From assembly GCA_018266375.1 (NCBI GenBank), contig JAFEAO010000005.1, positions 254,619 through 318,618 of the forward strand: 64,000 bases of DNA. The letters run 5' to 3'. Shown in pieces: positions 47,975 through 64,000 of this stretch; the first letter of the stretch is position 1; each line of letters opens with the position of its first letter. This stretch comes from Bdellovibrionales bacterium (lineage in GTDB: Bacteria; Bdellovibrionota; UBA1018; CAIMNF01). Both the position numbers and the translations under genes were made by a program. The notes beneath the pieces are model-generated. The model did not search any database. It saw only the letters and a list, made by a program, of their open reading frames with translations, and had not been told where the DNA came from.

Positions 47975-47984
47975 CCCCGTCTCC

Positions 47985-48296
47985 TCAATCTCTCAATATC
48001 TGGATCTGGTCGGTATCGACCGATTTCAAGGTTCTAAACATCGCAATCACCAGACCCAAGCCCACCGCACTCTCGGCTGCGGCCACCGTCATCACAAACA
48101 AGACGGTCAGGTCGCCCAAAACCGATTGGTGCATTTTCGAGAAAGCCACGAAGCACAAGTTCACGGAGTTAAGCATGAGCTCGATACACATCAGCATGAT
48201 GAGGAGGTTCTTACGGATCAGAAGTCCGAAGAGACCGATTCCAAATACAATCAGGGCCACGACGACCATCATCATCGGTTGAATTTCGCCGTTCAT
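47985..48296 (-). CDS. nuoK: NADH-quinone oxidoreductase subunit K
   Basis: A protein of 103 residues with three membrane helices. The buried glutamates of the central half-channel are seen in MLMCIELMLNSVNL and AAAESAVGLGLV. Length is normal. Confidence 0.95.
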   Translation of the reverse strand: MNGEIQPMMMVVVALIVFGIGLFGLLIRKNLLIMLMCIELMLNSVNLCFVAFSKMHQSVLGDLTVLFVMTVAAAESAVGLGLVIAMFRTLKSVDTDQIQILRD

Positions 48297-48829
48297 GATA
48301 CTCCTCCCTTGCGTTGGCGCTTCGAGAGAGCAATCGTTGCGACGATTGCGCCCAAGAGCAAAAACGAGGTCAGTTCGAATTGAAAAAGATGATCCGTAAA
48401 GAGAAGCTCTGAAATCACGCGGAGGTTACCACCCAGCTCCTCTATTTTTTGATCGGTATAGATATTGGTGGGCGCTAGGCCGCTCACTCGGAGTGCGGCG
48501 TTGATCAACACGGTGACCATGCCCACGCACGCGAGACCCGCAATGCCCTTAAATAGTAAACTCGACTCTTTGATGTCGGTGATCGGACTGTCTTGGTTTA
48601 AAAGCATGATCACGAACACGAAGAGCACCATGATGGCACCCGTGTATACAAGAATCTGCAGCGCCGCGATCAGGTGCGCACCCATGAGCGCGTACAATCC
48701 GGAAAATGAAAAGAAAACCAGGACCAAAGCAAACGCGGAAGCCACCGGAGTCCGGCGAAAGATCACGAGCAAACTACCCACGATTGCAATGGTAGAAAAT
48801 GCAGCGAAGGCGATCATTGAACCGGTCAT
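48293..48829 (-). CDS. nuoJ: NADH-quinone oxidoreductase subunit J
   Basis: A protein of 178 residues with five membrane helices. The conserved AALQILVYTGAIMVLFVFVIML segment of helix 3 (quoted in part by position 59-80) identifies it. Four-base overlaps on both sides. Confidence 0.95.
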   Translation of the reverse strand: MTGSMIAFAAFSTIAIVGSLLVIFRRTPVASAFALVLVFFSFSGLYALMGAHLIAALQILVYTGAIMVLFVFVIMLLNQDSPITDIKESSLLFKGIAGLACVGMVTVLINAALRVSGLAPTNIYTDQKIEELGGNLRVISELLFTDHLFQFELTSFLLLGAIVATIALSKRQRKGGVS

Positions 48830-49269
48830 TTGTTACCTCGTTGTTCGAGGAGGAAGTCTTTTTCGTACACTTCCCGGTTTTGCTGGCTCATCTCGTAGAT
48901 ATTACTGAGCTTGATCGCGTCCTTCGGGCAAGCCTCCTCACACATACCGCAGAAGCAGCAACGGAGGATGTCGATATCGAATTTGACCGGGTACTTTTCT
49001 TTATCTTCGCGCTCTCCGGCGATGATATGGATACAGCTGGCCGGACAGACTGTCGGACACAGCATACATGCCGTGCAGTTCTCGACGTTGTTGACGGACT
49101 TAATGTAGTGCTGACCTCGGTAACGGCTTGAGTAGTCGCGACGCTGTTCCGGGAACTGAATCGTCACCTTCTTGTGAAACAGGAAGTTTTTGAACGTGAT
49201 CCACAAGCCCTGGATGATCTCGACGAAGTAGAGGCGGTTCCAAATAGCGGGTTTACGTTTGACTAACAT
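48826..49269 (-). CDS. nuoI: NADH-quinone oxidoreductase subunit I
   Basis: A 2[4Fe-4S] ferredoxin-like subunit of 147 residues with both cluster motifs, CTACMLCPTVCP and CCFCGMCEEACP. It holds clusters N6a and N6b that lead to N2 in NuoB. Confidence 0.96.
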   Translation of the reverse strand: MLVKRKPAIWNRLYFVEIIQGLWITFKNFLFHKKVTIQFPEQRRDYSSRYRGQHYIKSVNNVENCTACMLCPTVCPASCIHIIAGEREDKEKYPVKFDIDILRCCFCGMCEEACPKDAIKLSNIYEMSQQNREVYEKDFLLEQRGNK

Positions 49270-49270
49270 C

Positions 49271-50356
49271 TTAGAGGACCCCCATATAAATCAAAACTCC
49301 GGTGATGAGCACGTTGAGTAGAGCGAGAGGGAACATCACCTTCCAACCGAGGTTCATGAGTTGATCGAAGCGGAAACGCGGGATCGACCAACGTACCCAC
49401 ACAAAAATCCACATCCAGATCGCAATCTTGGTCACAAACGACAAGGCTTGGCAGAGGACGAGCGCGCCGCCGCTGGGCAATATTCCGAGCGCATCCAAGT
49501 GACCCACAACCCAATCCATACCCGGGAGAAGCTGCCACCCGCCAAAAAAGAGCGTGCAGATGAGCGCCGAAGCAACGGCCATATTGATAAACTCGGCCAT
49601 CATAAAAAGAGCAAAACGCATTGCTCCGTACTCCAAGTGATAGCCCGCGATCAACTCCGACTCGCCCTCGGGCAGGTCGAACGGAAGACGGTTGGTTTCC
49701 GCGAATACCGACACGACAAAAAGCACGAATCCGAGCGGTTGAAGGAATACGCCCCACTTCGGAATTTCAATCCCGGCAATAGTCCAAAGGACTTCACCCT
49801 GCTGAGCGGTGATCTCTCCGAGTTTCACGCTTTGGAAAATCATCGCAAGGCCAACAATCGAAAGACCGAGGCTCAGCTCGTAACTGATCATCTGAGCCGC
49901 ACTACGAAGAGATCCGAGGAGCGAGTACTTATTATTGGACGCCCAACCCGCCATAATGATGCCGTAGACACCCAGCGACGCGATCGAGAAGCAGTACAAA
50001 ATACCGACGTCGAGATTAGCGATCTGAAACTGAAGGTGTCCGTTTGCATCGGTGTAGGTCCCGGCGAACGGAATTACGGCGAACGTCATGAACGACGGAA
50101 TCACCGCTATCCACGGAGCAATATGCCAATAGTACTTATTAACGTGATCGGGAGCGCGGTCTTCCTTAAAGATAAACTTAAGAACATCGCACGCCGCTTG
50201 GAACAAACCGAACGGACCCATGCGATTCGGACCCAATCGATTTTGAATGAGAGCCGATCCTCGACGCTCAACAAAAAGCATGATCGGAACGACGGCAAGC
50301 AACCCCATGAGGACGATCGCGATCTTGCCGAACATGAAAGCGGTTTCGAAGCTCAC
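49271..50356 (-). CDS. nuoH: NADH-quinone oxidoreductase subunit H
   Basis: A protein of 361 residues with eight membrane helices. Hallmarks are ERRGSALIQNRLGPNR and AETNRLPFDLPEGESEL, which line the quinone chamber and the E-channel. It is an intact reference for the degenerate H-type paralogue upstream. Confidence 0.97.
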   Translation of the reverse strand: MSFETAFMFGKIAIVLMGLLAVVPIMLFVERRGSALIQNRLGPNRMGPFGLFQAACDVLKFIFKEDRAPDHVNKYYWHIAPWIAVIPSFMTFAVIPFAGTYTDANGHLQFQIANLDVGILYCFSIASLGVYGIIMAGWASNNKYSLLGSLRSAAQMISYELSLGLSIVGLAMIFQSVKLGEITAQQGEVLWTIAGIEIPKWGVFLQPLGFVLFVVSVFAETNRLPFDLPEGESELIAGYHLEYGAMRFALFMMAEFINMAVASALICTLFFGGWQLLPGMDWVVGHLDALGILPSGGALVLCQALSFVTKIAIWMWIFVWVRWSIPRFRFDQLMNLGWKVMFPLALLNVLITGVLIYMGVL

Positions 50357-51771
50357 GCGACACCCACTTTCGTTTTCTTATTGGCAAGTAACATCAGGAT
50401 TTCAGCCGTAGACTTCGAGCGGCCGCGAGGAAGAATCGCACGCTTCAGTTTTTGCTCTTTGCCCTGGTGATTGATGATCGTTCCGTCTTTCTCTGTATAA
50501 GCGAGACCCGGGAGAATGTGCTGGTATTTCGCGGTCTGGTGATCTTTATCCAGGAATACACCCACCCCGACTTGAATCGCATGTCCAAGTTCCGGCAGTA
50601 CCGCTCTGCCGCCCGTGAACACGACTGCGGCGCTAAAGTCGTGATCCACCCTGGGATTATGCGGAACAATTCCCAATTTCTCCGCGCCGCGAAGATTCGA
50701 CGTCTTGCTCGTCATTTTCAATATTTTATCCGCCGGCTGGTCTTGCGCCGAGGTTTCAATTCCCGGAGTGCCGAAGTGTTGAAGCACTGAACCCGGATAA
50801 TAAAGACCCGTGAACTCGCGAATCGCGCTCATCTCTTCAAGAGTGAGGTCGGTTCCGACTAAAAAAAGAACCTTCTTACCTTCGAGTGCCGTCTTCACCG
50901 CCAGGATCGAATCTTCCCAACTCGTCTTCTCGTTATTCCAACGAGGTTCGAGAACGCGGGTCTCGTCCTGGGTATAGTGATAGTTGAACCGACCTTCGTC
51001 ACACATCCAATATTTGTTCACTTCCAAGTTCTCGCGCGGGATCGTGCGATAGACGACGTTTCCTTCGTGTTGGAGTTCGATGTTGCAGCCCTTCGAACAG
51101 CCTTCGCAGATACTCGCGGTTTTCTTGAGCATCCAAGCGCGTTTGCGGAACCGAAAGTCGCGCAAAGTAAGTGAACCCGTCGGACAAATATCCGCATAAT
51201 TGCCTGCGTATTCGGTCTTGAGCGCTTCACCGTCGATCGTGGTGATATCGACGTTGTTACCGCGTTTGACCGCAACCATCTCGCGGATGCCGGCAATCTC
51301 GTCGCCGAAACGGATACAACGCGTGCAGTGAATACAACGGTTCATGTTCTTTTCGATCACCGGACCCATATCGACGTCGACATAGGTGCGGCGTTCTTCG
51401 GAGTGGCGCATGTACGCGCTTCCGTGGCCGTAAGAGTTATCTTGTAGATCGCATTCGCCGGACTTATCGCAGATCGGACAATCGAGCGGATGGTTCAAGA
51501 GGAGAAACTCCATCGTTCCGGCACGGCCCTTTTTAACATTTTCAGAATTGGTTTTGACCACCATGCCCTCAGCGGCGTTTGTTGAACACGCGGTTTGAAG
51601 TTTTGGCATCTTCTCCACTTCGACGTAACACATGCGGCATTGGGCGACGACCGTCAGTCCCGGATGATAACAAAACACGGGGATATCGACACCCGCGCGT
51701 TTCGCAACGGTAATGAGGTTTTCGCCCGGTTTAAACTCCACTTCTTTACCATCAATCGTACACTTAGGCAT
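50353..51771 (-). CDS. nuoG: NADH-quinone oxidoreductase subunit G, short form
   Basis: A protein of 472 residues. The N-terminal half has all cluster motifs: 2Fe-2S (CYHPGLTVVAQCRMC), His-Cys3 (HPLDCPICDKSGEC), 4Fe-4S (CIHCTRC ... CPTG) and the start of the molybdopterin-type domain (CEGCSKGC). The rest is much shorter than in E. coli (about 908 aa) or Paracoccus (about 670 aa), so the molybdopterin-like domain is largely lost. The N1a-N3-N4-N5 path should still work. Confidence 0.94.
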   Translation of the reverse strand: MPKCTIDGKEVEFKPGENLITVAKRAGVDIPVFCYHPGLTVVAQCRMCYVEVEKMPKLQTACSTNAAEGMVVKTNSENVKKGRAGTMEFLLLNHPLDCPICDKSGECDLQDNSYGHGSAYMRHSEERRTYVDVDMGPVIEKNMNRCIHCTRCIRFGDEIAGIREMVAVKRGNNVDITTIDGEALKTEYAGNYADICPTGSLTLRDFRFRKRAWMLKKTASICEGCSKGCNIELQHEGNVVYRTIPRENLEVNKYWMCDEGRFNYHYTQDETRVLEPRWNNEKTSWEDSILAVKTALEGKKVLFLVGTDLTLEEMSAIREFTGLYYPGSVLQHFGTPGIETSAQDQPADKILKMTSKTSNLRGAEKLGIVPHNPRVDHDFSAAVVFTGGRAVLPELGHAIQVGVGVFLDKDHQTAKYQHILPGLAYTEKDGTIINHQGKEQKLKRAILPRGRSKSTAEILMLLANKKTKVGVA

Positions 51772-53077
51772 GGCGCACCCGTTCTTTCACATCGCCCCTG
51801 ACGTAGGCTTCGAACTCAGGCCTGAATTTTTTGATAAAGCTGATCACCGGGCCCGCGGCCGCGTCGCCGAGAGCGCATAAAGTTTTACCGCCGATGTTGC
51901 CCGCGATGTCGGTGAGCATGTCGATGTCCGATGGCTTCGCTTTGCCGTCATGGGGGTGATGAACAATCCGGTGAAGAATCGACTCCATCCACTGACAACC
52001 TTCACGACATGGCGTGCACTGGCCGCACGACTCGTGCGCGTAGAATTTAGTCACACGCAGGAGGAGTTTGACCATGTCGGTGGTGTCGTCGCAAACCATG
52101 ATCGCCGCAGAACCCATCATAGTTCCTACCTTCTGAAGTGGCTCGACGTCGTACACAACGTCGATTTCGTCCGCGCTCAATACCGGCGCCGACGACCCGC
52201 CCGGAACGACGGCTTTGAGTTTGCGGCCCTTCCAAACCCCGCCGCCCAAATCTTCGATGATCTGACGGAGAGTCATGGAGCCGGCACCAATCTCATAAAC
52301 TCCTGGTTTATTGACGTGGCCCGAGAGAGAAATCAAACGGGTACCCCCCGATTTATCAATCTTGCCGAGCTTTGCAAAATTATCGCCGCCCATGCGCATG
52401 ACAAACGGAACGGTCGCGACGGATTCGACGTTGTTGACGGCAGTTGGACACGCGAATGCGCCTGAAACCGCCGGGAACGGCGGCTTCACGCGAGGCTCTC
52501 CGCGCTTGCCTTCAAGTGAGTTCAAGAGGCCAGTCTCTTCGCCGCAAATATACGCGCCAGCACCACGATGGATGGTGATATCGAGCGTGTTTTGTGTTCC
52601 GAGGATATTTTGCCCGAGGTAACCTTTAGCGTATGCTTCGTCGATCGCTTCCTGAAGTAACTTTGCTTCGCGTGCGTACTCTCCACGGATGTAGATATAA
52701 GAGTGCTTGCAGCCGATCGCGTGGGATCCGATGATAATGCCTTCGATCAGCGCGTGCGGAGTATAGCGAATGATCTGACGATCTTTGCAAGTACCCGGCT
52801 CGGATTCATCAGCGTTGATCACGAGATATTTTGGTTTATCCACCTTCGGGATGAAGCTCCATTTCATTCCCATCGGGAAGCCCGCGCCGCCGCGGCCCCG
52901 AAGATTCGCTTTTTTAACTTCGTCGATCACTTGATCGGGAGTCATCTCGGTCAAAACCTTCTTGGCCATTTTGTAACCGTCCATTTTGTCGAGGTAGTAC
53001 TCAAGCTTACGGTTCGAGTCTTTCCAAAAATGCGGTTCGAATAACTTCGTCACAGGAGTATTGGCTTCCACGCTCAT
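51764..53077 (-). CDS. nuoF: NADH-quinone oxidoreductase subunit F
   Basis: A protein of 437 residues. NADH/FMN site: GRGGAGFPMGMKW and GAGAYICGEETGLLNS. The N3 cluster ligands are in ESCGQCTPCREG plus a later Cys. It oxidises NADH and passes electrons to NuoG. It overlaps nuoE by four bases. Confidence 0.97.
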   Translation of the reverse strand: MSVEANTPVTKLFEPHFWKDSNRKLEYYLDKMDGYKMAKKVLTEMTPDQVIDEVKKANLRGRGGAGFPMGMKWSFIPKVDKPKYLVINADESEPGTCKDRQIIRYTPHALIEGIIIGSHAIGCKHSYIYIRGEYAREAKLLQEAIDEAYAKGYLGQNILGTQNTLDITIHRGAGAYICGEETGLLNSLEGKRGEPRVKPPFPAVSGAFACPTAVNNVESVATVPFVMRMGGDNFAKLGKIDKSGGTRLISLSGHVNKPGVYEIGAGSMTLRQIIEDLGGGVWKGRKLKAVVPGGSSAPVLSADEIDVVYDVEPLQKVGTMMGSAAIMVCDDTTDMVKLLLRVTKFYAHESCGQCTPCREGCQWMESILHRIVHHPHDGKAKPSDIDMLTDIAGNIGGKTLCALGDAAAGPVISFIKKFRPEFEAYVRGDVKERVRHA

Positions 53078-53568
53078 GCCTGGCCTCCTTTATTTTTTTC
53101 GATGAAATCACTTAAAGAGTTGATATCCAGGTTCTCGATGTAATCGTCATTCGCCATCATCGCCGGAGCCGTCGTGCAAGCGCCCAAGCACTCTTCTTCG
53201 GACAAGGTAAACCTGCCGTCCGGGGTGGTTTCTCCACACTTGATGGCGAGTTTTTTCTCGGCGTATTCCATGAGTTCGTCCGCTCCACGCAAACAACACG
53301 CGACGTTCGTACAAATCTTCAGGTGCATTTTGCCGACCGGCTTAAGGTTGTACATCGTATAGAAGCTCGCGACTTCGCGAATCTGCGCCGGGTGAACGCC
53401 GATGTAGTTTGCAACGTCCTCAAGCGTTTCCTTTGACAACCAGCCGTGCTCTTTTTGTGCCTCATGCAGGGCCGGGAGAATCAATGCCTTCTTGTTCGGA
53501 TAGCGCGGTTCCAATTTTTTCATCGCGGTATAAAACTTCTCGCTTAAAACTTTTCCTGTGGTCGCCAT
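53074..53568 (-). CDS. nuoE: NADH-quinone oxidoreductase subunit E
   Basis: About 164 residues from MATTGKVLSEKF, an ATG placed just after the nuoD stop. Thioredoxin-like 2Fe-2S domain with ligands in CTNVAC and CLGAC. It holds cluster N1a beside NuoF. Confidence 0.95.
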   Translation of the reverse strand: MATTGKVLSEKFYTAMKKLEPRYPNKKALILPALHEAQKEHGWLSKETLEDVANYIGVHPAQIREVASFYTMYNLKPVGKMHLKICTNVACCLRGADELMEYAEKKLAIKCGETTPDGRFTLSEEECLGACTTAPAMMANDDYIENLDINSLSDFIEKNKGGQA

Positions 53569-53569
53569 A

Positions 53570-54847
53570 TTAGCGGTCGAGCTCCCCTGCAATCACATTG
53601 ATGCTACCGAGGGCCGCGACGAGGTCGGCGATGTAACCGCCTTTGATCATCGGGTCCAAACCTTGGTAGTGCCAGAACGACGGCCCGCGAATACGCATGC
53701 GATGCGCGGCTGGGCCACCTTTACTGACGATGTAAAATCCGAGTTCGCCGTTTGCGGCCTCGAAGGCGGTGTACGCTTCGCCCGCAGGCACGTTGAATCC
53801 CGTCATGAAAAATTTGAAATGGTGAATGAGGCCTTCCATCGTGTTATACACGACGTCTTTGTCCGGGATGCGCACGCGCTTATCTTCAGACCAGATCGGG
53901 CCCGGTTTAATACGATCCGCGCATTGAGTGAGGATATTCAGAGATTGCTTCATCTCTTCCATGCGCACGTAGTAGCGATCGAACACGTCACCGTTTTGCG
54001 CGACCGGCACGTCAAAATCAATTTTATCGTAGAACATTGAAGGCTGATCGCGACGAAGGTCGATATCCACGCCGGCGGCACGCGCGTTCGGACCGGTGTA
54101 GCTGTATCTTAAACATTGCTCTTTGTTGAACACCGATACGTTTTTGGTGCGTTTCAACCAAATGCGGTTATCAGTGAGAAGTTTGTCCATCTCGTCGATG
54201 ACTTCACGAGTTTCTTTACACCACTCGCGCACTTCATTTTCCCAACCCTCGGGAGCATCGGCCATAAGGCCGCCGATGCGGGTGTAGGACGTAGTCAAAC
54301 GCGCACCACATACTTTTTCAATGAGCGTGTAAGCCTTCTCGCGCTGATGGAAGCCATACAGGAAGTATGAGAATGCACCCAAGTCGACCGCACTAATGCC
54401 CACGCAAATCAAATGGTCGATTACGCGAGAGAGTTCAGCGCACATCATTCGGATCCAAATCGCGCGCTCAGGCACCTCGACGCCCATCAGGCGCTCGACC
54501 GCCATCGCATACGTTACATTATTGATGAGCGACGAGCAGTAGTTCAAACGGTCGGTGTACACTATGAACTGGTGATACGTACGGTTCTCGCCTAGTTTTT
54601 CTTTCGCACGGTGAGTGTAGCCAAATTCCGAATAAGATTTTTCAATAATCTCGCCGTTCAGCTTCGCCATGCAACGAAAGGCTCCGTGCATCGCCGGATG
54701 GGTTGGCCCGATGTTCACGATCACGCGAGAGTCGTCGAAAATATCGTCCGAATCTTTTTTTAGTGTGATGTCGTATTGAGCCGGGAATCCCCAACGGGCG
54801 ATATCAAGTGGAACATCATGAAAATTGCTTTTATCGTTATCGCTCAT
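53570..54847 (-). CDS. nuoD: NADH-quinone oxidoreductase subunit D
   Basis: About 425 residues from MSDNDKSNFHD; a longer frame of 63 residues lies inside nuoC and was rejected. The quinone-site histidine is in NIGPTHPAMHG, and the quinone-site tyrosine is in TDRLNYCSSL. It is the 49-kDa subunit. It overlaps the nuoC stop by four bases. Confidence 0.96.
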   Translation of the reverse strand: MSDNDKSNFHDVPLDIARWGFPAQYDITLKKDSDDIFDDSRVIVNIGPTHPAMHGAFRCMAKLNGEIIEKSYSEFGYTHRAKEKLGENRTYHQFIVYTDRLNYCSSLINNVTYAMAVERLMGVEVPERAIWIRMMCAELSRVIDHLICVGISAVDLGAFSYFLYGFHQREKAYTLIEKVCGARLTTSYTRIGGLMADAPEGWENEVREWCKETREVIDEMDKLLTDNRIWLKRTKNVSVFNKEQCLRYSYTGPNARAAGVDIDLRRDQPSMFYDKIDFDVPVAQNGDVFDRYYVRMEEMKQSLNILTQCADRIKPGPIWSEDKRVRIPDKDVVYNTMEGLIHHFKFFMTGFNVPAGEAYTAFEAANGELGFYIVSKGGPAAHRMRIRGPSFWHYQGLDPMIKGGYIADLVAALGSINVIAGELDR

Positions 54848-55404
54848 GACAAAAGCTCCGGATCGATCGGTTCGGGCGATAAAAAAATCTGGTAGCCGCG
54901 AAGCGGATAATCTTTGCGCAAAGGATGGCCTTCCCAACGTTGGTCCATGAGAATGCGGCGAAGATCCGGATGGCCTTCGAAGTGAATCCCGAACATGTCG
55001 TAAATCTCGCGTTCGGCCCAGTTGGCGCCTTCCCACAGCGGGATTGCCGTCGGCATCTTCTCGCCGTCAGCGACGCGGGTTTTGATGCGCACGCGAGCTT
55101 TAGTTTCGAGATGCATGAGGTGGTACACGACAAAAAACCGCGGATCGCCTTCTTCGTCGACCGCGGTCATGTCGCTCAAAAACGAATAACCGTAACGATC
55201 TTTCGTCGAACGCAAGAAATCGATGATGATCGGTTTCTTTACGATGATGGTCGGAATATCAACGGCATCGGTACCTGGTTTCAAAATTTGCTCGATCGAC
55301 GAGGTAAAATCATTCGAGAGCGCCGTCAAGAGCTGTTCCCAAGCCGTTCCGTATTTATCGCTAAAATTACCCCAATTGGTCTTGATCGATGTACGCACGT
55401 CCAT
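54844..55404 (-). CDS. nuoC: NADH-quinone oxidoreductase subunit C
   Basis: A protein of 186 residues, the 30-kDa subunit. Signature is WAEREIYDMFGIHFEGHPDLRR (positions 125-146), followed by EGHPLRKDYPL. It is a separate gene, not fused to nuoD. Confidence 0.96.
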   Translation of the reverse strand: MDVRTSIKTNWGNFSDKYGTAWEQLLTALSNDFTSSIEQILKPGTDAVDIPTIIVKKPIIIDFLRSTKDRYGYSFLSDMTAVDEEGDPRFFVVYHLMHLETKARVRIKTRVADGEKMPTAIPLWEGANWAEREIYDMFGIHFEGHPDLRRILMDQRWEGHPLRKDYPLRGYQIFLSPEPIDPELLS

Positions 55405-55407
55405 TAT

Positions 55408-55977
55408 TTAAACCTTCCTCTGCTCAGAGCCACGAGGATGAGCATCCATCGACGACACCGCCGGGAGCGGAGTCGGAGGAGTTTTACCGTCGGGTGATTT
55501 CATGCGGCGGTGAGCATGAGTCTCTCCACGCGCGATCATGTCTTCCAAGCGCAGAAGACCGTTCAGCAATCCTTCCGGAGCCGGAGGACATCCCGGAACA
55601 TAAACGTCGACCGGCACGACCGTGTCGATGCCTTGAGTGACCGAGTAAACATTGAAAATCCCTCCCGATGATGCGCAAGCGCCCATCGAAATCACCCACT
55701 TCGGATCCGCCATCTGGTCGTAGATGTTGCGCAGGATCGGGGCCATCTTCAGGTTCACGATGCCAGCGACAACAAGCAAGTCTGACTGACGTGGAGAAAA
55801 GCGCACGACTTCGGCGCCGAAACGGGCCATATCGTATCCGGATGCGAGTGTCGCCATGAGCTCAATCCCACAGCAGCTCGTCCCAAATGGAAGCGGGTAC
55901 AGAGAGTTCTTCCGCGCCCAGTTCACAACGTTTTCAAGTTTGGTTGTAAAAAAATCCGCCGAACCGTCTTTTGACAT
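55408..55977 (-). CDS. nuoB: NADH-quinone oxidoreductase subunit B
   Basis: A protein of 189 residues. The N2 cluster ligands are the tandem Cys in GTSCCGIELM, Cys in MGACASSGG and Cys in VPGCPPAPE. It binds quinone with NuoD. A 15-base gap separates it from nuoA. Confidence 0.97.
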   Translation of the reverse strand: MSKDGSADFFTTKLENVVNWARKNSLYPLPFGTSCCGIELMATLASGYDMARFGAEVVRFSPRQSDLLVVAGIVNLKMAPILRNIYDQMADPKWVISMGACASSGGIFNVYSVTQGIDTVVPVDVYVPGCPPAPEGLLNGLLRLEDMIARGETHAHRRMKSPDGKTPPTPLPAVSSMDAHPRGSEQRKV

Positions 55978-55992
55978 CTGTGACCTCGTTAA

Positions 55993-56355
55993 TTATTCCC
56001 AGTCCAACGCGCCCTTGCGCAAAATATAGACATACCCGACTAACAATACAGCTATGAACACCGCCATCTCGATGATGATAAAATTTCCAGAGCTCAAAAG
56101 TTTTTTGTAAACGACCGCATAGGGATAAAAGAAAACTATTTCGACGTCGAACAACAAGAAAAGGATCGCCACGAGATAAAACCGGACCGACATCCGCCGG
56201 TTCTTGGCGTGGTCAACAGGAGGCACGCCGCATTCCACGGGCGAGTCCTTGGTTTTGTTGGGTAGGTTGGGTCCAATGAGGCTCGTGATCAAGAGCACGG
56301 CGCCCCCAATCGCTACCCCGGCCGCCATCATGATCAGCACCGGAATATACTCCAT
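55993..56355 (-). CDS. nuoA: NADH-quinone oxidoreductase subunit A
   Basis: A protein of 120 residues with three membrane helices. The loop motif SPVECGVPPVDHAKNR and the helix FLLFDVEIVFFYPYA are standard. First gene of the canonical operon; only 50 bases separate it from the complex-I-like block upstream, with AAGGAT before the ATG. Confidence 0.96.
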   Translation of the reverse strand: MEYIPVLIMMAAGVAIGGAVLLITSLIGPNLPNKTKDSPVECGVPPVDHAKNRRMSVRFYLVAILFLLFDVEIVFFYPYAVVYKKLLSSGNFIIIEMAVFIAVLLVGYVYILRKGALDWE

Positions 56356-56405: not shown

Positions 56406-57770
56406 TTACCATAAATTAGGAATGGGTTGAGTATTTAATCTCGAAACGAAGCCCTTCCCGAATGCGGTCATGAGAATTACGCAAAGCATTACCAGCGTGA
56501 GCAAACTCCAATCTCCGCGATTTCCGGGAGACTCGGTTCGACCTACGTCGTCATGATGTCTGCGCAAGATCTGAGTGATCATCTGAACTGCTGCGATAGA
56601 GATAAAAAACCACGAAATAAGAAATGCGACCGAGAACGGCGCAAGTTCTGCGGTGTGAAGTTCCTTCAGAATCAAAAAATATTGATATCCGAGCATGAGG
56701 GGCGGGAAACCGAGGCCAGCAAGCACCGCAACAACGCTAAACCAACGATTGTTTTCAGCACCGCCCAAAAATGCACGGCCCAAAAGAGTCGTCGTCATAA
56801 GCAGTCCGACCAGCAATGTAAATAAAATTGGAAGCGCCGTGTTCGACGGAAGTAAAAGTGGAAACAAACTTAGGCTAAAGAGCGCGGCAAGCATATTAGA
56901 AAGCCATCTGTTGGGCTCTTTAGTACGCGCAGCCATCAACGAGTATCTTACGGCGGAAGTCGTGAGCACGACACCCAGAACCGACTGCGAAATCATTTTC
57001 GGCAAGAATTCGAACTGCGCATAAAACGGAACCGCTACTCGAATCAAAAATAGGATTGCTCCAAAGAAGCAAAACAGATTGAAATAGGGCAGCGACATCG
57101 GTGCCAAACCCACAATATGTATCCCGTGAAGGAGCCAGAAGGAGAAATAAAGAATCAAAAACCCCACGAAGCACTGAATGAGTTCCGGCTTACCCTTCAA
57201 CCCGGCCATAAATTCATTGATGTAACCCGTGCCCATGAGATATTCACCCACCAAGAACAGCACCAGGAACACCGATGTCACCATCAAAATGGAAAACGTG
57301 GTCTTTCCGAAAAACTCGGTCCAGTTTTTGCTCGCGTTCGACTCGACCATTACGAGGCTCATGCCTGAGATAATGAGGCCGACAAGTCCGATATACGTGC
57401 TCACCCAATGATTGGATTGCGAGAGCAGACACAAGAAGAACGCGCCGGACAAAAGACCCATCTGACCGCGGAGCTTCGAGACCACGCTCAAGCCCGAGTG
57501 AAGCGCCAATTGCCATGAGCCCACCGCCACCATAAAGAGCGAAATCATGCGGCAATAGCGTGAAACCGCGTCGCTGAATAAAATCATGAGTGGCGAATCA
57601 AAGGTAAAGAGATCGCTTCGAGCTCCGTAATAGAACGCTCCAAAAAAAGAAGTCAATCCCGTCACGAAGATAAGGAGGTGCGAACTTGTAGTTCGAAACC
57701 CCGCTCCACCGAGAACCAGCGCGAATTGAATTAAAATTAAAATTTCTGGAATCCAATTCAAGATCGTCAT
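56406..57770 (-). CDS. NuoN-like membrane protein of the complex-I-like block, channel residues lost
   Basis: A protein of 454 residues with about 13-14 membrane helices and the size and layout of NuoN. In the place of the helix-5 glutamate (canonical FIALEVMSL) it has YIGLVGLII, with Val130. In the place of the helix-7 lysine it has LILYFSFWLLHGI. By my alignment both residues essential for proton movement are therefore missing. It is the last gene of the ten-gene block and overlaps the gene before it by four bases. Membership in the antiporter-like family is inferred from position, length and hydropathy plus weak motif similarity. Confidence 0.7.
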   Translation of the reverse strand: MTILNWIPEILILIQFALVLGGAGFRTTSSHLLIFVTGLTSFFGAFYYGARSDLFTFDSPLMILFSDAVSRYCRMISLFMVAVGSWQLALHSGLSVVSKLRGQMGLLSGAFFLCLLSQSNHWVSTYIGLVGLIISGMSLVMVESNASKNWTEFFGKTTFSILMVTSVFLVLFLVGEYLMGTGYINEFMAGLKGKPELIQCFVGFLILYFSFWLLHGIHIVGLAPMSLPYFNLFCFFGAILFLIRVAVPFYAQFEFLPKMISQSVLGVVLTTSAVRYSLMAARTKEPNRWLSNMLAALFSLSLFPLLLPSNTALPILFTLLVGLLMTTTLLGRAFLGGAENNRWFSVVAVLAGLGFPPLMLGYQYFLILKELHTAELAPFSVAFLISWFFISIAAVQMITQILRRHHDDVGRTESPGNRGDWSLLTLVMLCVILMTAFGKGFVSRLNTQPIPNLW

Positions 57771-58735
57771 TGCGAGAGCCCCACAAAAAGCAACAACTGC
57801 GCCAGGAGCGCGATCAAGTATCTCACCGATGGCCAGGTGGTTTTATGCTCGCCAAATTCGATGCCTTGAATGAGCGCATATGCGTGGAGACATTGGACCA
57901 CGAACACAAAAATAATCCAGAGCGGATTCATCGCGACCACGCCCGGGAGCACCTCTCTAAACAAGAGGAAGCTGAGGGCGCCTGGAACGCCGAGAAGCGC
58001 GACCCGCGCAACGGCATCAAAGAGAGGCGACTGACGACTGCCGAGATCAAAAAGACGGGCACCGAGCAATACAAACCCGAGAAGCGAGCCCAACAACAAG
58101 ACAGGAACCCGCTCGGCGTCCATCACGAGAGCAAAAAGCCCAAACCCAAGCCACGATTGCGTCAGGTGGATCAAGATCCAGCGCACGCGCTTCGATATAC
58201 CGGCAAAAATCGCGGAGAACGCGTAGGTCGCGAGACCCAGGCAGCAAAGAGTGAGGTCCCAAATCTGGGAGTACTCGACCTTAACCTGATCTTTAATCCG
58301 CCCCATCACGACAAGCGTGATGAGTGCCGGGAGCACCACGGTATCGATATACGCGCGAGAAGTGAGTGCGACGTAGTGGCGGGCAAAACCCACGTTCCAC
58401 GGCATCACCGGAAGCGAAATCAAAAGACCGAAGAAAACCCAAAGCGTCGAATACTGCGATCCCTCGGATGAAACTCCATACACCGCGAGAAAGCAGCCAA
58501 AGAGACGGAGGAAATAAGCCTTCTGAGTGAGAATGAGGGCGGTCTTCTTTGAGTTCACCGCTGTTTGAAGGAATGCGACGAGATGAAGCGATATGAGCGC
58601 GAGTAAGTTTACGACGACCGACGAACTCATCAGCACGATCCCCGCGATGAGCGTCACCGGCAAACTTGCTATCACGCCGGAGAGACACCACGAGGCAAAT
58701 ACCATGATCATGACCGGGTTTAAACTCCAGATCAT
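57767..58735 (-). CDS. NuoM-like membrane protein of the complex-I-like block, shortened
   Basis: About 322 residues from MIWSLNPVM (ATG overlapping the previous stop), with nine to ten membrane helices, against 485 for the canonical NuoM here. The helix-7 region LLISLPVMPWNVGFARHYV aligns with canonical AIKVPLVPFHGWVRDAY, with Ser107 in place of the essential Lys. The match supports descent from NuoM and loss of pumping. Function unknown. Confidence 0.65.
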   Translation of the reverse strand: MIWSLNPVMIMVFASWCLSGVIASLPVTLIAGIVLMSSSVVVNLLALISLHLVAFLQTAVNSKKTALILTQKAYFLRLFGCFLAVYGVSSEGSQYSTLWVFFGLLISLPVMPWNVGFARHYVALTSRAYIDTVVLPALITLVVMGRIKDQVKVEYSQIWDLTLCCLGLATYAFSAIFAGISKRVRWILIHLTQSWLGFGLFALVMDAERVPVLLLGSLLGFVLLGARLFDLGSRQSPLFDAVARVALLGVPGALSFLLFREVLPGVVAMNPLWIIFVFVVQCLHAYALIQGIEFGEHKTTWPSVRYLIALLAQLLLFVGLSQ

Positions 58736-59574
58736 CCGATCCTCCCGCGAATCACCACGATAAGAATCACCCAAGCCGCAAGAATCGAAAGAGCACTCCA
58801 AAAGAAAAATTTAAACTCGCCGTCCACCACCGCTGTCGCGGATTTCGCGGCCTGAATCCAGCCTTGACTCTCTCCGAAACTGCGATTGAACCCTTTGTAC
58901 ATCCGCGCGCCACGGCTATAGATGCCGCGAACCATTTTATCGAAGCCGATCTTTTTACCGAATACGAGACCCGAGACCACCGCCGCGACCAAGAGTGAGC
59001 CGGCGAGAACGGTAAGCGCCTGCGGGTTATCGACAATCTTGAGAATGTATTCTTTGAACGGATAGAAAACAGCCAAGACAATCGGCAGTTCAATCCAAGC
59101 CATAATACTGTCTACATTCTTGATTTTGGCTAGTCTCAAAACTTCTTCGAGCACAAGATAAAACGCCGCTGCCGCAAGAATAATCTCGAAATCCCCATGA
59201 CTCGGAAAAAACTGATGCGTCAGAGCAAGTGCCGGAACCACACCCAATCCACCTTGGCGGAGGTGCACCGAAACCATAAACAAACCGAAAACCAAGAAAA
59301 TCGTCTGATAGAAGTTACCGAGTACCGATGCGCCGACGAGCGCCGCCAGTCCAACTGCGTTCGTGAGCAACAGCCACTTCGAACGCTGCGTGTGTATCCG
59401 ATCAATTAAGATCAACCCGACGAGTAAGAGCACCGTAAACCAACCATGGGTCAGCGAGCCAAGGACCACGATCAAATAAGGAATAATCCTCTTTTCACGA
59501 ATCACACTCAGTGCGCTCACCAGCAAGAACAGAAGTCCGATCTGATTCAAATCGAAGGTCTCAAGACCGATCAT
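58732..59574 (-). CDS. Membrane protein in the NuoL position of the complex-I-like block
   Basis: A protein of 280 residues with about seven membrane helices, less than half of a normal NuoL (619). The end has an amphipathic charged segment (YSRGARMYKGFNRSFGE) followed by a final membrane span, like the C-terminal tail of NuoL. I cannot find the channel Lys or Glu motifs. Its relation to NuoL is inferred from position and this tail. Confidence 0.55.
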   Translation of the reverse strand: MIGLETFDLNQIGLLFLLVSALSVIREKRIIPYLIVVLGSLTHGWFTVLLLVGLILIDRIHTQRSKWLLLTNAVGLAALVGASVLGNFYQTIFLVFGLFMVSVHLRQGGLGVVPALALTHQFFPSHGDFEIILAAAAFYLVLEEVLRLAKIKNVDSIMAWIELPIVLAVFYPFKEYILKIVDNPQALTVLAGSLLVAAVVSGLVFGKKIGFDKMVRGIYSRGARMYKGFNRSFGESQGWIQAAKSATAVVDGEFKFFFWSALSILAAWVILIVVIRGRIG

Positions 59575-59794
59575 CGCTTTGAACCTCGCTTCTAAAAGAC
59601 CAGATGCAAACCAATGAGATCACGCCAAACAGAAGCGCCGAACCAACATAGACTTCCGTACGTCGTGCGCACACAAGTAACACCAGCGACACCACCGTCA
59701 CCAAACGGAACAGCCCAAGCGACATCCGCACAACTCCGGTCGACACAAACAACTCGTAAAGCGCATATACAATGAGCACTCCAAGCGCGATCAT
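59561..59794 (-). CDS. Small membrane protein in the NuoK position
   Basis: A protein of 77 residues starting MIALGVLIVYALYEL, with an ATGA overlap to the previous gene and three hydrophobic segments. NuoK has three helices and about 100 residues. The only membrane-embedded acid is the glutamate near residue 14. A longer frame starting upstream lies inside the neighbour and was rejected. Positional analogue only. Confidence 0.6.
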   Translation of the reverse strand: MIALGVLIVYALYELFVSTGVVRMSLGLFRLVTVVSLVLLVCARRTEVYVGSALLFGVISLVCIWSFRSEVQSDDRS

Positions 59795-60159
59795 CGCCTC
59801 TTCCTCTCGTTGGTCAGGTAGATCAATGCAAGACAAGACAAGAACCCAAGCCCAATCCAAATCGGCACTAGGTCTTCTTGCCAATACTTCGATACCTTTA
59901 CTTCGATCGGTGCCGGGACCTCGACATTGAAAAGCGGGAACACCCCGCCACCAAAAACCAGAGCCAGGACGATCGCCATCACCACTCGACCACGTTCGAA
60001 TTTTTGTTCGGACCAACCGAGCAAGTGGACCGTGCGCCAATACTGAGCCGCGAAGCTGATCGAGACCCCTAAGAAAACCACCCCTAAGAACGGGTCGCGC
60101 ATCCAAGCGGCAATCGATACAGCGAGCATCAGGAGCGCATCGACATAAAATCGAATCAT
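59791..60159 (-). CDS. Membrane protein in the NuoJ position
   Basis: A protein of 122 residues with three to four membrane helices (MIRFYVDALLMLAVSIAAW at the start). It overlaps the NuoI-like gene before it. NuoJ in the canonical operon has 178 residues. I see no NuoJ signature, so the assignment rests on gene order. Confidence 0.6.
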   Translation of the reverse strand: MIRFYVDALLMLAVSIAAWMRDPFLGVVFLGVSISFAAQYWRTVHLLGWSEQKFERGRVVMAIVLALVFGGGVFPLFNVEVPAPIEVKVSKYWQEDLVPIWIGLGFLSCLALIYLTNERKRR

Positions 60160-60548
60160 AAGTCGCCCCTTCCGAAGTCCGTCTTCAGGCTCTTGAGATC
60201 AAACACGGCCGGTTGAATCTCTTTGGTTTGGCTGAGCGACTCGGGTCCACAAACCTCGACGCACATACCGCAGAAGATACAGTTCGAGTAATCGATCTCG
60301 AACTTAGAAACCCAGTGACGGTTGTTCTTTTGGTTGATGACCGAAGAGACTTCGATACATTTGGTCGGGCACACTTTGCGGCAATCGCCGCAGCCGGTGC
60401 ACTTTTCGATCTCATTAAAAAGGAGGCCCCGTGCGCGCGCCGGAAAATCATCTTTGCTTCTAGACGACACCGGATCCGGGTAGAACTCGGTATCGATTTT
60501 ACGAATCTCGTCTTCATTGGTAAAGTGTTTCCAGATGGATTTAAACAT
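60156..60548 (-). CDS. NuoI-like 2[4Fe-4S] protein of the complex-I-like block
   Basis: A protein of 130 residues. Eight cluster cysteines are complete: 50, 53, 56 and 60 (CTGCGDCRKVCP), and 90, 93, 96 and 100 (CIFCGMCVEVCG). The second motif has Gly where Pro is usual. This keeps the N6a/N6b wire. It overlaps the NuoH-like gene before it by eight bases. Confidence 0.88.
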   Translation of the reverse strand: MFKSIWKHFTNEDEIRKIDTEFYPDPVSSRSKDDFPARARGLLFNEIEKCTGCGDCRKVCPTKCIEVSSVINQKNNRHWVSKFEIDYSNCIFCGMCVEVCGPESLSQTKEIQPAVFDLKSLKTDFGRGDL

Positions 60549-61308
60549 GGGTCACCGCCGAGATCAGGAATAAAAAAAACGTGATTGGAATCAGATACTG
60601 AATGCTGATTCGAAATAAATCCGCTTGCGAGTACTTTGGAAAATATTGGCCCATCAGGCGAGACACCAAGTACACCGCAACCGTTTTTAAGTAAAAATCT
60701 ACAACAAACCAAGAGCCTCCCATGAAAATCTTGGTTGCGAGCAACGACCAAACAAAAAACCGCGAGCTCTTCAGCCAGAAAATACGCGGATACATCGGCG
60801 CGAACGGATGCTCGCCAAACAAAATCATGCCGGCGATTTGGAATGGAAACACAAACAAAAGATTTGTCCAGTTCCATGACCATTCGGAAATATTCAACGA
60901 ACCCTGCCCCACCCCGCAAGCAAGCACGCAAATGAAAGAGATGAACGCTCCAATAAGAAAGCGCATCTGGCTTCGGTCCGAGCTCACCCGCTCAAACACT
61001 TCGAGCTGGTCGTGAGTCGAGATGACAATTAAAAACCAGTTAAAGAGCAGGTAAAGGTAGAACGCGCAGTCGACGTTCAAAAACAAAAGCGCCGCGCATG
61101 AAAGCTGACACAAATATAAAAACACGGCGCGCCAACTCGAAATCGATTTGAGGTCAGCGATCATGTCGATCCATTGCTGACTCAGGTAATCGCCGAACAC
61201 AATCCCACGTCCCACGCGGGCCTGATGGATCACGTTCACACGCTCGCTTGCGACGAATGCAAAAAAAGAAATCGGGAAGAGACCGAACGCGGCAAGGAAA
61301 ACATCCAT
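60541..61308 (-). CDS. NuoH-like membrane protein of the complex-I-like block, degenerate
   Basis: A protein of 255 residues with seven to eight membrane helices. The first loop ASERVNVIHQARVGRG aligns with NuoH ERRGSALIQNRLGPN. The later quinone-chamber loop ETNRLPFDLPE is reduced to FGEHPFAPMYP. It is about 100 residues shorter than the canonical NuoH in the same array. The anchor role for the B/D/I module is inferred. Confidence 0.75.
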   Translation of the reverse strand: MDVFLAAFGLFPISFFAFVASERVNVIHQARVGRGIVFGDYLSQQWIDMIADLKSISSWRAVFLYLCQLSCAALLFLNVDCAFYLYLLFNWFLIVISTHDQLEVFERVSSDRSQMRFLIGAFISFICVLACGVGQGSLNISEWSWNWTNLLFVFPFQIAGMILFGEHPFAPMYPRIFWLKSSRFFVWSLLATKIFMGGSWFVVDFYLKTVAVYLVSRLMGQYFPKYSQADLFRISIQYLIPITFFLFLISAVTHV

Positions 61309-62321
61309 CAGCGATCCACCTCCGTCACCGAAAGGTTGGCCGAAGCGAGGATGATCGGAATATCGTCAAACGCCTCGCCCTCGAGGAGCAAGGGGATCGC
61401 ATTTTTAATTTGATCGGACGGAGTCGAAACCGACGTCGTCTTTATATTGAGATTCGATCCGACATCAAACGACACGTCCCATGATCCGCGAAGTGTTTCG
61501 AATTTGGCTTCAACTTTCTTCTTCGAAGCACTATCCGGAATTTTTACGTAATAATCGCCGCCTTCGATCTTGCGCGAGAGCTCGAGAATCGACTCCGCGA
61601 GTTCGAACGACTCGCCCATCGCATAACGCAAGCGCGACCCAACACTGCTGTTCCAACCGAGCTTCGAGGTCTCAACGCGCGCTTCGCTGATGAACCCGTA
61701 CTTGCCATCGTCGAGCACGAGTCCGAGTTGATCCAAACGATTTTGAAACGGATGCGTCCAGCAGAACATTGCTTTAATCCGCTCAAAGTCCTTGATGTAT
61801 TGCTTCGACCAGACTTCCACGCGCTCCAAAAAACCGTCCGTGATGTCGTAGCGGGTACCGCCCGGAATAATGTAAAAGTAGCCGTAACGCGAGCCCGACA
61901 AGCGCTCCACTAAATCGAGAAGCTCTTCGCGGTGTTTGCGCAACAAATGCGATAACATGTGGATTCCAAATTGAGACGCCATCGCCGACAAGTACCTGAG
62001 AGCGCTTACAGCATCGACCATCTCGGCCGCAATATCGCGTATCCACGCTGCACGCGCGGTAATTTGCGTACCCGTCGCTTGTTCGATCAATTCCGAATAA
62101 ATCCGATCCGCGATGAACGCGCTCTCCGGATCGATGCGCGAAAAACACCTCTGCGCTTCGATAAAGTTTTTACCTTCGGTTTTCTCAATGATTCTGCGGC
62201 TCGCGTAACCGAATTCAGGCACAGCGGTCACGATGCGATCGCCTTCAAGGCTGACGTTCAACTTCATCATACCGGGAAGCCACGGGTGGATCGGGCCCAG
62301 ATCAATTTCTTTTTGAATCAT
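61308..62321 (-). CDS. NuoD-like large subunit of the complex-I-like block, no Ni-Fe ligands
   Basis: About 337 residues from MIQKEIDLGPIHPWLPG; the ATG overlaps the previous stop. His12 matches the quinone-site histidine of NuoD. The shared segment TARAAWIRDIAAEM matches canonical PERAIWIRMMCAEL. Only two cysteines exist (Cys59 and one near residue 195), and no CxxC pair, so it cannot hold the Ni-Fe centre of group 4 hydrogenases. The quinone-site Tyr of NuoD aligns with Pro65. There is no nuoC partner gene. Confidence 0.85.
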   Translation of the reverse strand: MIQKEIDLGPIHPWLPGMMKLNVSLEGDRIVTAVPEFGYASRRIIEKTEGKNFIEAQRCFSRIDPESAFIADRIYSELIEQATGTQITARAAWIRDIAAEMVDAVSALRYLSAMASQFGIHMLSHLLRKHREELLDLVERLSGSRYGYFYIIPGGTRYDITDGFLERVEVWSKQYIKDFERIKAMFCWTHPFQNRLDQLGLVLDDGKYGFISEARVETSKLGWNSSVGSRLRYAMGESFELAESILELSRKIEGGDYYVKIPDSASKKKVEAKFETLRGSWDVSFDVGSNLNIKTTSVSTPSDQIKNAIPLLLEGEAFDDIPIILASANLSVTEVDR

Positions 62322-62692
62322 TTCTGAACCTCGCGCAGCGAGATCACGCCATTCATGATCGCTTCCGGGCGCGGCGGACATCCGGTGACGTAAACGTTGA
62401 CCGGAACCTTACCTTCCATATCCGTGGGGAACAATCCCCCGCCGCATGCGCAGGTGCCGATCGCGAGCACGTACTTCGGCCGGGCCATGCGTTCGTAAAA
62501 ACTCATCACTTCCGTCCCGAGTTTGGCATTGATCGAGCCCTGGAGAATGAGCAAGTTCGCGTTCTCCGGCGTATCGCTCGGCATGCAACCCAGGCGCTCC
62601 AGATCGTAACGACTCGAATCGGTTTGAATCCAATCATCCCCGCAGCAAGACATGCCGACACGGATGTACCGGAGGAGGGGCTTAAGCGTCAT
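62318..62692 (-). CDS. NuoB-like Fe-S subunit of the complex-I-like block
   Basis: A protein of 124 residues against 189 for the canonical NuoB. N2-type ligands are present: Cys16-Cys17 (MSCCGDDW), Cys81 (GTCACGGG) and Cys105 (VTGCPPRPE). The PPRPEAIMNG segment after the last Cys is conserved in the whole NuoB/hydrogenase small-subunit superfamily. It should hold one 4Fe-4S cluster beside the D-like subunit. Confidence 0.9.
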   Translation of the reverse strand: MTLKPLLRYIRVGMSCCGDDWIQTDSSRYDLERLGCMPSDTPENANLLILQGSINAKLGTEVMSFYERMARPKYVLAIGTCACGGGLFPTDMEGKVPVNVYVTGCPPRPEAIMNGVISLREVQK

Positions 62693-62906
62693 CGGATGAG
62701 CCCTTCCGTAAATAATGCTGGGATGCTAAAAAGAAAGACAAGAAGAGCACCATCACGACCAAAATCGCGATGAGATACGGAATGCTTTTTCGCTCCTTCG
62801 AGACGAAGAGCGGAAGAGCAAAAACCAAAGGAATCCAAAAGCAGAGCAGCGCCTGAGACAGCTGTGTCGTCTTGATTTCAAAAGGTAAAATCTTTTTGGA
62901 TTTCAT
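62682..62906 (-). CDS. Small two-helix membrane protein in the NuoA position
   Basis: A protein of 74 residues with two membrane helices (about 18-36 and 43-64) and a basic start. It precedes the B-like gene, as nuoA precedes nuoB, and overlaps it by 11 bases. The conserved ECG loop of NuoA is absent, and there are two rather than three helices, so homology is unproven. AAGG lies almost adjacent to the ATG. First gene of the 25-gene leftward array. Confidence 0.6.
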   Translation of the reverse strand: MKSKKILPFEIKTTQLSQALLCFWIPLVFALPLFVSKERKSIPYLIAILVVMVLFLSFFLASQHYLRKGSSDDA

Positions 62907-62942: not shown

Positions 62943-64000
62943 ATGGTCGGGCCGGAACGCGAGACAAAATTTACAAATCCTCTCGTACATGCCTTTCACG
63001 CACTCACGCGCGCCGTGGAGCATCAAAAGCCGATCGTGTGTCTCACTTCCTCCAAAGAATTCATCGACGAGTGTCTTCCAATCGCCGAATCGCTGGCATC
63101 GGCCATGCTGCCTGCTTGGGGTCAGATCGTTCAGGTCGCACAGTGGTCTGCTTGGGACCATTCGCCCTTTTCGCCCGTGGCATCCTCGCTCACTCAAAAA
63201 CTCGATCGCCTCAAAATTTTAAAATTACTCAGCGACGGTTCGAAACCTCTCGTCCTTTTTTGCATGGTCGACGCCTGGGTACAGCCCACTCTCCCTGAAG
63301 ACCTCTATCGCAAACAAACTCGAGTATTTAAAGCGGGCGACGACATCGGCACACTTGAAGACTTCCGCACACTGCTACGCAACAACGGCTATGTAAAAAC
63401 CGAGACGGTCGAAGAAGCCGGCCAGTACGCCATTCGAGGCGAGCTCTGCGACCTTTTTATCGCATCTGAGACACAGCCGATTCGAATCGAACTCTTCGAT
63501 ACGCTCATCGAACGCATTCGCCCGTTCCATCCGGGCACCCAGCGCACGTTTAGCGAAGAATCCAAGCTCCATTCGTTCACGTTGGCGCCGGCCGAGGAGG
63601 CGCTCATCCCTTGGGATAACCTGAACCCGTTCCTCGAAAAGCTCAAGGAGTACTGCGACGCCCATCACATCTCGCGCAAGGTTCGTGATCCGATCTTTGA
63701 AAACATCCGCACCGGATTTTTGCCCGAGCAGTTTCGTACTTGGATTCCATTTTTGTACCAAAAAGAAGGTTTTTTACGCGACTACTTGCCTTCAACCGCT
63801 GAGGTGATCAGTTTCGAGCCGGCGCAAATCCGTAGTCGTTTAAGCAACTTTCTCACCGAGCAAAAAAAAGAATTTGACCGCTACGAACAACGCCACTGGA
63901 TCTCGCCCGACTTCGATTTGCTTTACAAGAGCGCAGACCCGCTCATGGAAGGCGCGCTCAATTCTTCGGCGTTCCTCATTACCTCCACTCCCACCTACAA
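62943..64000 (+). CDS. mfd: Transcription-repair coupling factor, N-terminal part (cut by window edge)
   Basis: An open frame of 352 codons runs off the right edge without a stop. The start ATG has AAAGGA about 7 bases before it. The protein matches the Mfd N-terminal UvrB-like region: WDHSPFSPVASSL, then LEDFRTLLRNNGYVKTE, VEEAGQYAIRGELCDLF, and RIELFDTLIERIRPF followed by GTQRTF. Mfd removes stalled RNA polymerase and recruits UvrA. The helicase domains lie outside the window. It is divergent from the respiratory array. Confidence 0.92.
   Translation, partial: MVGPERETKFTNPLVHAFHALTRAVEHQKPIVCLTSSKEFIDECLPIAESLASAMLPAWGQIVQVAQWSAWDHSPFSPVASSLTQKLDRLKILKLLSDGSKPLVLFCMVDAWVQPTLPEDLYRKQTRVFKAGDDIGTLEDFRTLLRNNGYVKTETVEEAGQYAIRGELCDLFIASETQPIRIELFDTLIERIRPFHPGTQRTFSEESKLHSFTLAPAEEALIPWDNLNPFLEKLKEYCDAHHISRKVRDPIFENIRTGFLPEQFRTWIPFLYQKEGFLRDYLPSTAEVISFEPAQIRSRLSNFLTEQKKEFDRYEQRHWISPDFDLLYKSADPLMEGALNSSAFLITSTPTY

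Follow-up and report, generated by a model that had tools for sequence, protein, structure and literature searches.

A second complex I-type operon directly upstream of nuoA-N in a Bdellovibrionales bacterium has lost its proton-channel residues and probably encodes a non-pumping complex

The window, that is, the whole stretch of 64,000 nucleotides analysed here, comes from an uncultivated relative of Bdellovibrio and contains a ten-gene operon, A′B′D′H′I′J′K′L′M′N′ (minus strand, 62906 down to 56406), directly upstream of an intact nuoA-N operon. This arrangement raises the question of what a second set of complex I-type subunits does beside the complete enzyme, and whether it can still pump protons. 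The features are as follows.

62943..63998, plus strand: divergent mfd-type gene, cut by the window end, bordering the operon (TIGR00580, E 3e-20 over part of the model; UvrB_inter, E 5e-16; synteny)
62682..62906, minus strand: A′, NuoA-type, 74 aa, shortened (tblastn and HMM match to the accessory A′ of relatives, weak match to canonical NuoA)
62318..62692, minus strand: B′, NuoB-type, 124 aa, N2 cluster cysteines present (PF01058, E 1e-19; Cys mapping)
61308..62321, minus strand: D′, NuoD-type, 337 aa, quinone-site His and Tyr both replaced, NiFe ligands absent (PF00346, E 2e-14; alignment A1; residue table)
60541..61308, minus strand: H′, NuoH-type, 255 aa, E-channel Glu lost (PF00146 at only E 0.005; residue mapping)
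60156..60548, minus strand: I′, NuoI-type, 130 aa, both CxxCxxCxxxC motifs present (Fer4 families; alignment A2; motif count)
59791..60159, minus strand: J′, NuoJ position, 122 aa (position; tblastn to J′ of relatives)
59561..59794, minus strand: K′, NuoK position, 77 aa, both Glu lost (position; HMM to K′ of relatives)
58732..59574, minus strand: L′, NuoL position, 280 aa compared with about 615 (position; blastp chain through genome G003)
57767..58735, minus strand: M′, NuoM-type, 322 aa, without TM1-3, Ser107 at the NuoM K234 site (alignment; AlphaFold; fold match)
56406..57770, minus strand: N′, NuoN-type, 454 aa, Val130 at NuoN E133, Leu at K217, Tyr at K395 (alignment; AlphaFold; fold match)
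43226..56355, minus strand: canonical nuoA-N operon, complete, channel residues intact (open reading frames; PF00361 matches; residue mapping)

All nine junctions within the accessory operon overlap, by 1 to 14 bp each, and a gap of 50 bp separates the end of N′ from the canonical nuoA. The window's operon has no C′, and A′, H′, J′, L′ and M′ are shortened. An alternative genetic code was considered and found unnecessary, as the frames are open under table 11; the in-frame TGA flags seem to arise where matches extend upstream beyond the true start. Promoter and terminator scans gave results near chance level. The identities of L′, J′ and K′ in the window were assigned mainly by position and by chains of relatives, and a direct profile comparison of L′ of the window's genus with canonical NuoL gave no significant match.

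M′ and N′ of the window did not match PF00361, and a search of the whole genome with this family recovered only the canonical nuoL, nuoM and nuoN products. As Pfam was blind to both proteins, their alignment needed support from relatives, and their identity was based on full-length relatives together with the fold. In a full-length set (L061), M′ and N′ match PF00361 with E values of 2e-37 and 8e-45, and the M′ of full-length relatives scores above the NCBIfam NDH_I_M cut-off. AlphaFold models had mean pLDDT values of 86.5 for M′ and 85.6 for N′. Comparison with NuoM, NuoN and MrpD chains by VIA-align gave Z 27.7 over 300 residues at 3.3 Å for M′ and Z 36.2 over 441 residues at 3.0 Å for N′, so that both models show the antiporter-like fold that marks members of the complex I superfamily. 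M′ starts at about residue 54-90 of its structural matches, which indicates that the first helices (about TM1-3) are gone. The 347-aa mammalian ND2 chains were among the Foldseek matches of M′. Metazoan ND2 is an antiporter-like subunit without TM1-3, and M′ resembles it in lacking the same N-terminal helices; ND2, however, is part of a pumping enzyme, whereas M′ has no channel Lys or Glu, and L′, H′ and J′ are shortened as well. A PDB profile search with alignment A1, which was used for D′, was discarded, because canonical and E. coli sequences in the alignment made it non-discriminating.

An earlier note on this DNA had claimed that the channel Lys of the M-type protein is replaced by Ser107 and the channel Glu of the N-type protein by Val130, and that the helix-7 Lys region of the latter reads YFSFWLL. 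With E. coli NuoL, NuoM and NuoN as the residue ruler, the accessory proteins were compared with canonical and outgroup proteins, and both placements were borne out by alignment and by the predicted structures. Ser107, in the motif LISLPVMPW starting at residue 105, aligns with Lys234 of E. coli NuoM, and Val130, in YIGLVGL starting at residue 126, with Glu133 of NuoN; YFSFWLL starts at residue 208 and places a Leu at NuoN K217. In addition, the TM5 Glu site of the window's M′ falls into an alignment gap and E407 is replaced by Phe, and K395 is replaced by Tyr in N′. Other Lys or Glu residues that a better alignment might place at the channel positions were looked for in the predicted helices, and none was found; the charged residues within the helices of M′ and N′ lie elsewhere, and one basic residue, Lys72 of M′, survives in alignment with the canonical TM6 Lys.

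Homologues show the same loss, which is common across the class. A Lys at NuoM K234 (TM7) was present in 0 of 28 accessory proteins but in 10 of 12 canonical and outgroup proteins, and the NuoM TM5 Glu in 0/28 versus 12/12. At NuoN, the TM5 Glu (E133) was found in a single one of 28 accessory proteins and the TM7 Lys (K217) in none of 28, compared with 6/6 canonical and outgroup proteins at either position. In L, M and N taken together, residues of the TM5 Glu/TM7 Lys pairs occur in 0-1 of 24-28 accessory proteins per position. The observation in the earlier note is thus confirmed as correct, and it was understated; it did not extend to the absence of whole helices or to the probably greater age of the residue losses relative to the truncations.

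The loss extends to the remaining membrane subunits and to the quinone site. NuoH E157 and E216 were retained in 0/29 accessory proteins versus 29/29 canonical and outgroup proteins. NuoK E36, mostly Gln in the accessory set, was retained in 0/13 versus 23/23, and E72 in none of 13 accessory proteins. More than half of L′ is missing in the window. The quinone-site His and Tyr, expected in a pumping complex I, are both replaced in the window's D′, which according to alignment A1 has no NiFe ligands either. Among the accessory D′ proteins read, the Tyr is present only in G051, G056 and G057, and the His was lost throughout family f1 and in a few others.

The iron-sulfur ligands, by contrast with the proton-pumping residues, were kept. 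The Cys ligands of the Fe-S chain (N6a/N6b in I, N2 in B) are present in the window and nearly all relatives. The CxxCxxCxxxC motif occurs twice in the I′ of every relative read except G051, in which a stop codon splits the gene, and the N2 ligands of B′ are present in nearly all relatives. In G051, the least-eroded operon copy, the in-frame TAG lies between both cluster motifs (L150, around 6959) and represents either an assembly error or the onset of decay. The odd case for B′ is L152 (G049), where SCGCW stands in place of GCC at the first cysteine pair, in a locus that also contains runs of X; the N2 ligand pattern may have changed, or the assembly may be faulty. The sequence YPDPVSSR precedes the first Fe-S motif of I′ (60156-60548 in the window) and hardly varies among the accessory I′ proteins of the order. 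The Fe-S motifs could also have been kept for structure alone.

A reading of about 30 regions in relatives showed that, across most of the order, the position directly before the canonical nuoA is occupied by a full-length set including C′, with an L′ of about 640, an M′ of about 505 and an N′ of about 490 aa. In L061, which is typical of these, H′ matches PF00146 (1e-51), K′ matches PF00420 and C′ matches PF00329. With a threshold of E 1e-20, the I′ marker was detected in 50 of 58 class genomes and in 5 of 310 other genomes of the phylum; at the non-class matches read (L159-L163), the NuoB- and NuoD-type genes score as canonical-type. The closest I′ matches among named records are MAGs, mostly labelled Bdellovibrionales, Oligoflexia or Bacteriovoracaceae. 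A scan of viral contigs with D′ of G023 gave no match, and a plasmid search returned weak matches with less than 60% identity, two of five places among the matches listed being annotated as NuoI. No description of the operon was found in titles or abstracts of the open-access literature, which is weak evidence. Some genomes of the order (G049, G023 and G044, at loci L158, L164 and L165) have a further intact 11-subunit complex I operon beside the canonical nuo genes and the accessory set. At L164 and L165, a NuoM-type TM7 Lys site is Leu (FGFGV[L]GAIYPF), and the other channel residues are all present.

In a tree limited to complex I-type operons and rooted arbitrarily, the accessory clade was monophyletic with a support of 100, apart from the canonical clade, and family f1 had long branches. 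In the least changed copy, that of G051 (family f6), both quinone-site residues (His and Tyr), several Glu of NuoH, E133 of N and E407 of M are still present; a suspected absence of L′ in this genome was rejected, since a long open frame is present. In the full-length relatives the TM5 Glu/TM7 Lys pairs, the two Glu of NuoK and the key Glu of NuoH are already gone, usually along with the quinone-site Tyr; the window's family has further lost the quinone-site His and many helices. From these present states, read without a formal reconstruction, we infer that changes to the proton path came first, that most of the order then lost the Tyr, and that the large truncations and the loss of the His came last, in family f1.

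A redundant duplicate decaying under relaxed selection toward loss, with the missing residues and helices as erosion, would account for the long branches of family f1, the truncations, the loss of C′ and the stop codon within I′ of G051. It would also suit two species of the window's genus, G006 and G008 (L166 and L167), in which the operon is cleanly absent and the mfd-type gene lies directly beside nuoA; the I′ profile gave one weak match in each, as strong as those seen for canonical nuoI. However, comparison of L050 with L051 yielded dN/dS values of 0.023 for M′, 0.025 for N′ and 0.040 for L′, with all ten accessory genes between 0.02 and 0.05 and the canonical genes between 0.006 and 0.063, these values being approximate as dS exceeded 1 for most genes. 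Open genes with ratios of about 0.02-0.05 are not a set of pseudogenes, and at the level of sequence the accessory genes were shown to be under strong purifying selection. As the frames are intact in nearly all relatives, the Fe-S cysteines strictly retained and the operon persistent across the class, we regard decay as unlikely. Ions might instead still be moved along another path, with Arg/Gln networks and water replacing Lys and Glu: 18 of 19 order members outside the window's family have Arg at M K234, 16 of 19 order members have K or R at N K395, and single substitutions of some other residues of canonical complex I leave pumping intact (PMC9802314). Yet these basic residues are gone in the window's family, along with TM1-3 of M′ and more than half of L′, the NuoH and NuoK Glu are lost too, and the helices offer no replacement charges at the channel positions, so that this explanation appears improbable.

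The affiliation of the complex bears on the same question. The full-length relatives have the gene set A-B-C-D-H-I-J-K-L-M-N, of which the window lacks C′, and this set together with the family matches identifies an 11-subunit complex I without NADH module. Their gene order is that of such enzymes of the Ignavibacteria type (L130, L143) and of the Bdellovibrionota phylum (L158, L159), and the likeness includes the NuoD, NuoM and NuoN family matches and the Fe-S ligands of I and B. The accessory set differs from these enzymes in that the channel residues are gone from its L, M, N, K and H subunits and the quinone-site Tyr is usually gone too, and in the window it is shortened and without C′. 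Energy-converting hydrogenase-related (Ehr) complexes, which include Mbx, have antiporter-like subunits and neither NiFe ligands nor a known catalytic partner (PMC6349859). The accessory set resembles them in these points and in the lack of an NADH module, as would be expected of a relative of group 4 hydrogenases rather than of complex I. We consider this affiliation very improbable, because the relatives have C′-, J′- and K′-type genes and a weak A′ match in complex I order, as in Ignavibacteria-type operons, their full-length D′ scores best with NuoD models (in L061 just above one NCBIfam NuoD cut-off), and their M′ passes NDH_I_M.

The loss of the proton-pumping residues together with the retained Fe-S wiring points to a probably working but non-pumping complex. 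The absence of pumping of the complex I kind, suggested in the earlier note, is well supported and more widely so than for M′ and N′, as the loss spans L′, M′, N′, K′ and H′ throughout the class and is accompanied by that of the quinone site; judged from its residues, the accessory complex very probably would neither pump nor conserve energy itself. Mutations in canonical complex I showed that catalysis depends on the Glu-Lys pair and on the terminal residue, both being essential, and pair mutants lost catalysis rather than being merely uncoupled (PMC9802314), which makes it unlikely that the accessory complex is simply an uncoupled version of the same enzyme. Overall, we favor, with some reservation, a paralogous, non-pumping, Fe-S-bearing complex I of the 11-subunit type that is linked to the canonical complex I. 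A second, paralogous complex I without NADH module would have stopped pumping early in the class, trimming would have followed later and most strongly in the window's family, and a membrane-anchored Fe-S unit from I′ to B′ would still assemble and work beside the canonical enzyme.

As for its role, the earlier note had proposed an electron-transfer or regulatory assembly; both options would fit the strictly retained Fe-S ligands of I′ and B′ and the constant place before nuoA. Tentatively, the complex may serve as a side module for electron transfer whose acceptor is not that of the normal quinone reaction, or, a little less plausibly, an assembly or activity partner of canonical complex I. 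The genome encodes heme-copper oxidases; searches of it for POR-gamma and NiFe hydrogenase gave no match, so that no electron donor was evident. It is conceivable, if still doubtful, that the whole class has a non-pumping complex I dedicated to a task alongside the canonical enzyme encoded directly behind it, for example as a partner assembly or as an electron shunt.

Pairs involving G006 and G008 would allow canonical complex I to be compared in the presence and absence of the accessory set. As a natural paralogue with graded intermediates across the class, the accessory complex offers a series in which to study what residues pumping depends on, the order in which they can be lost and the other uses to which the scaffold can be put. 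If the proposed reading is true, the complex I scaffold would be kept under selection in these bacteria for something besides energy conservation.
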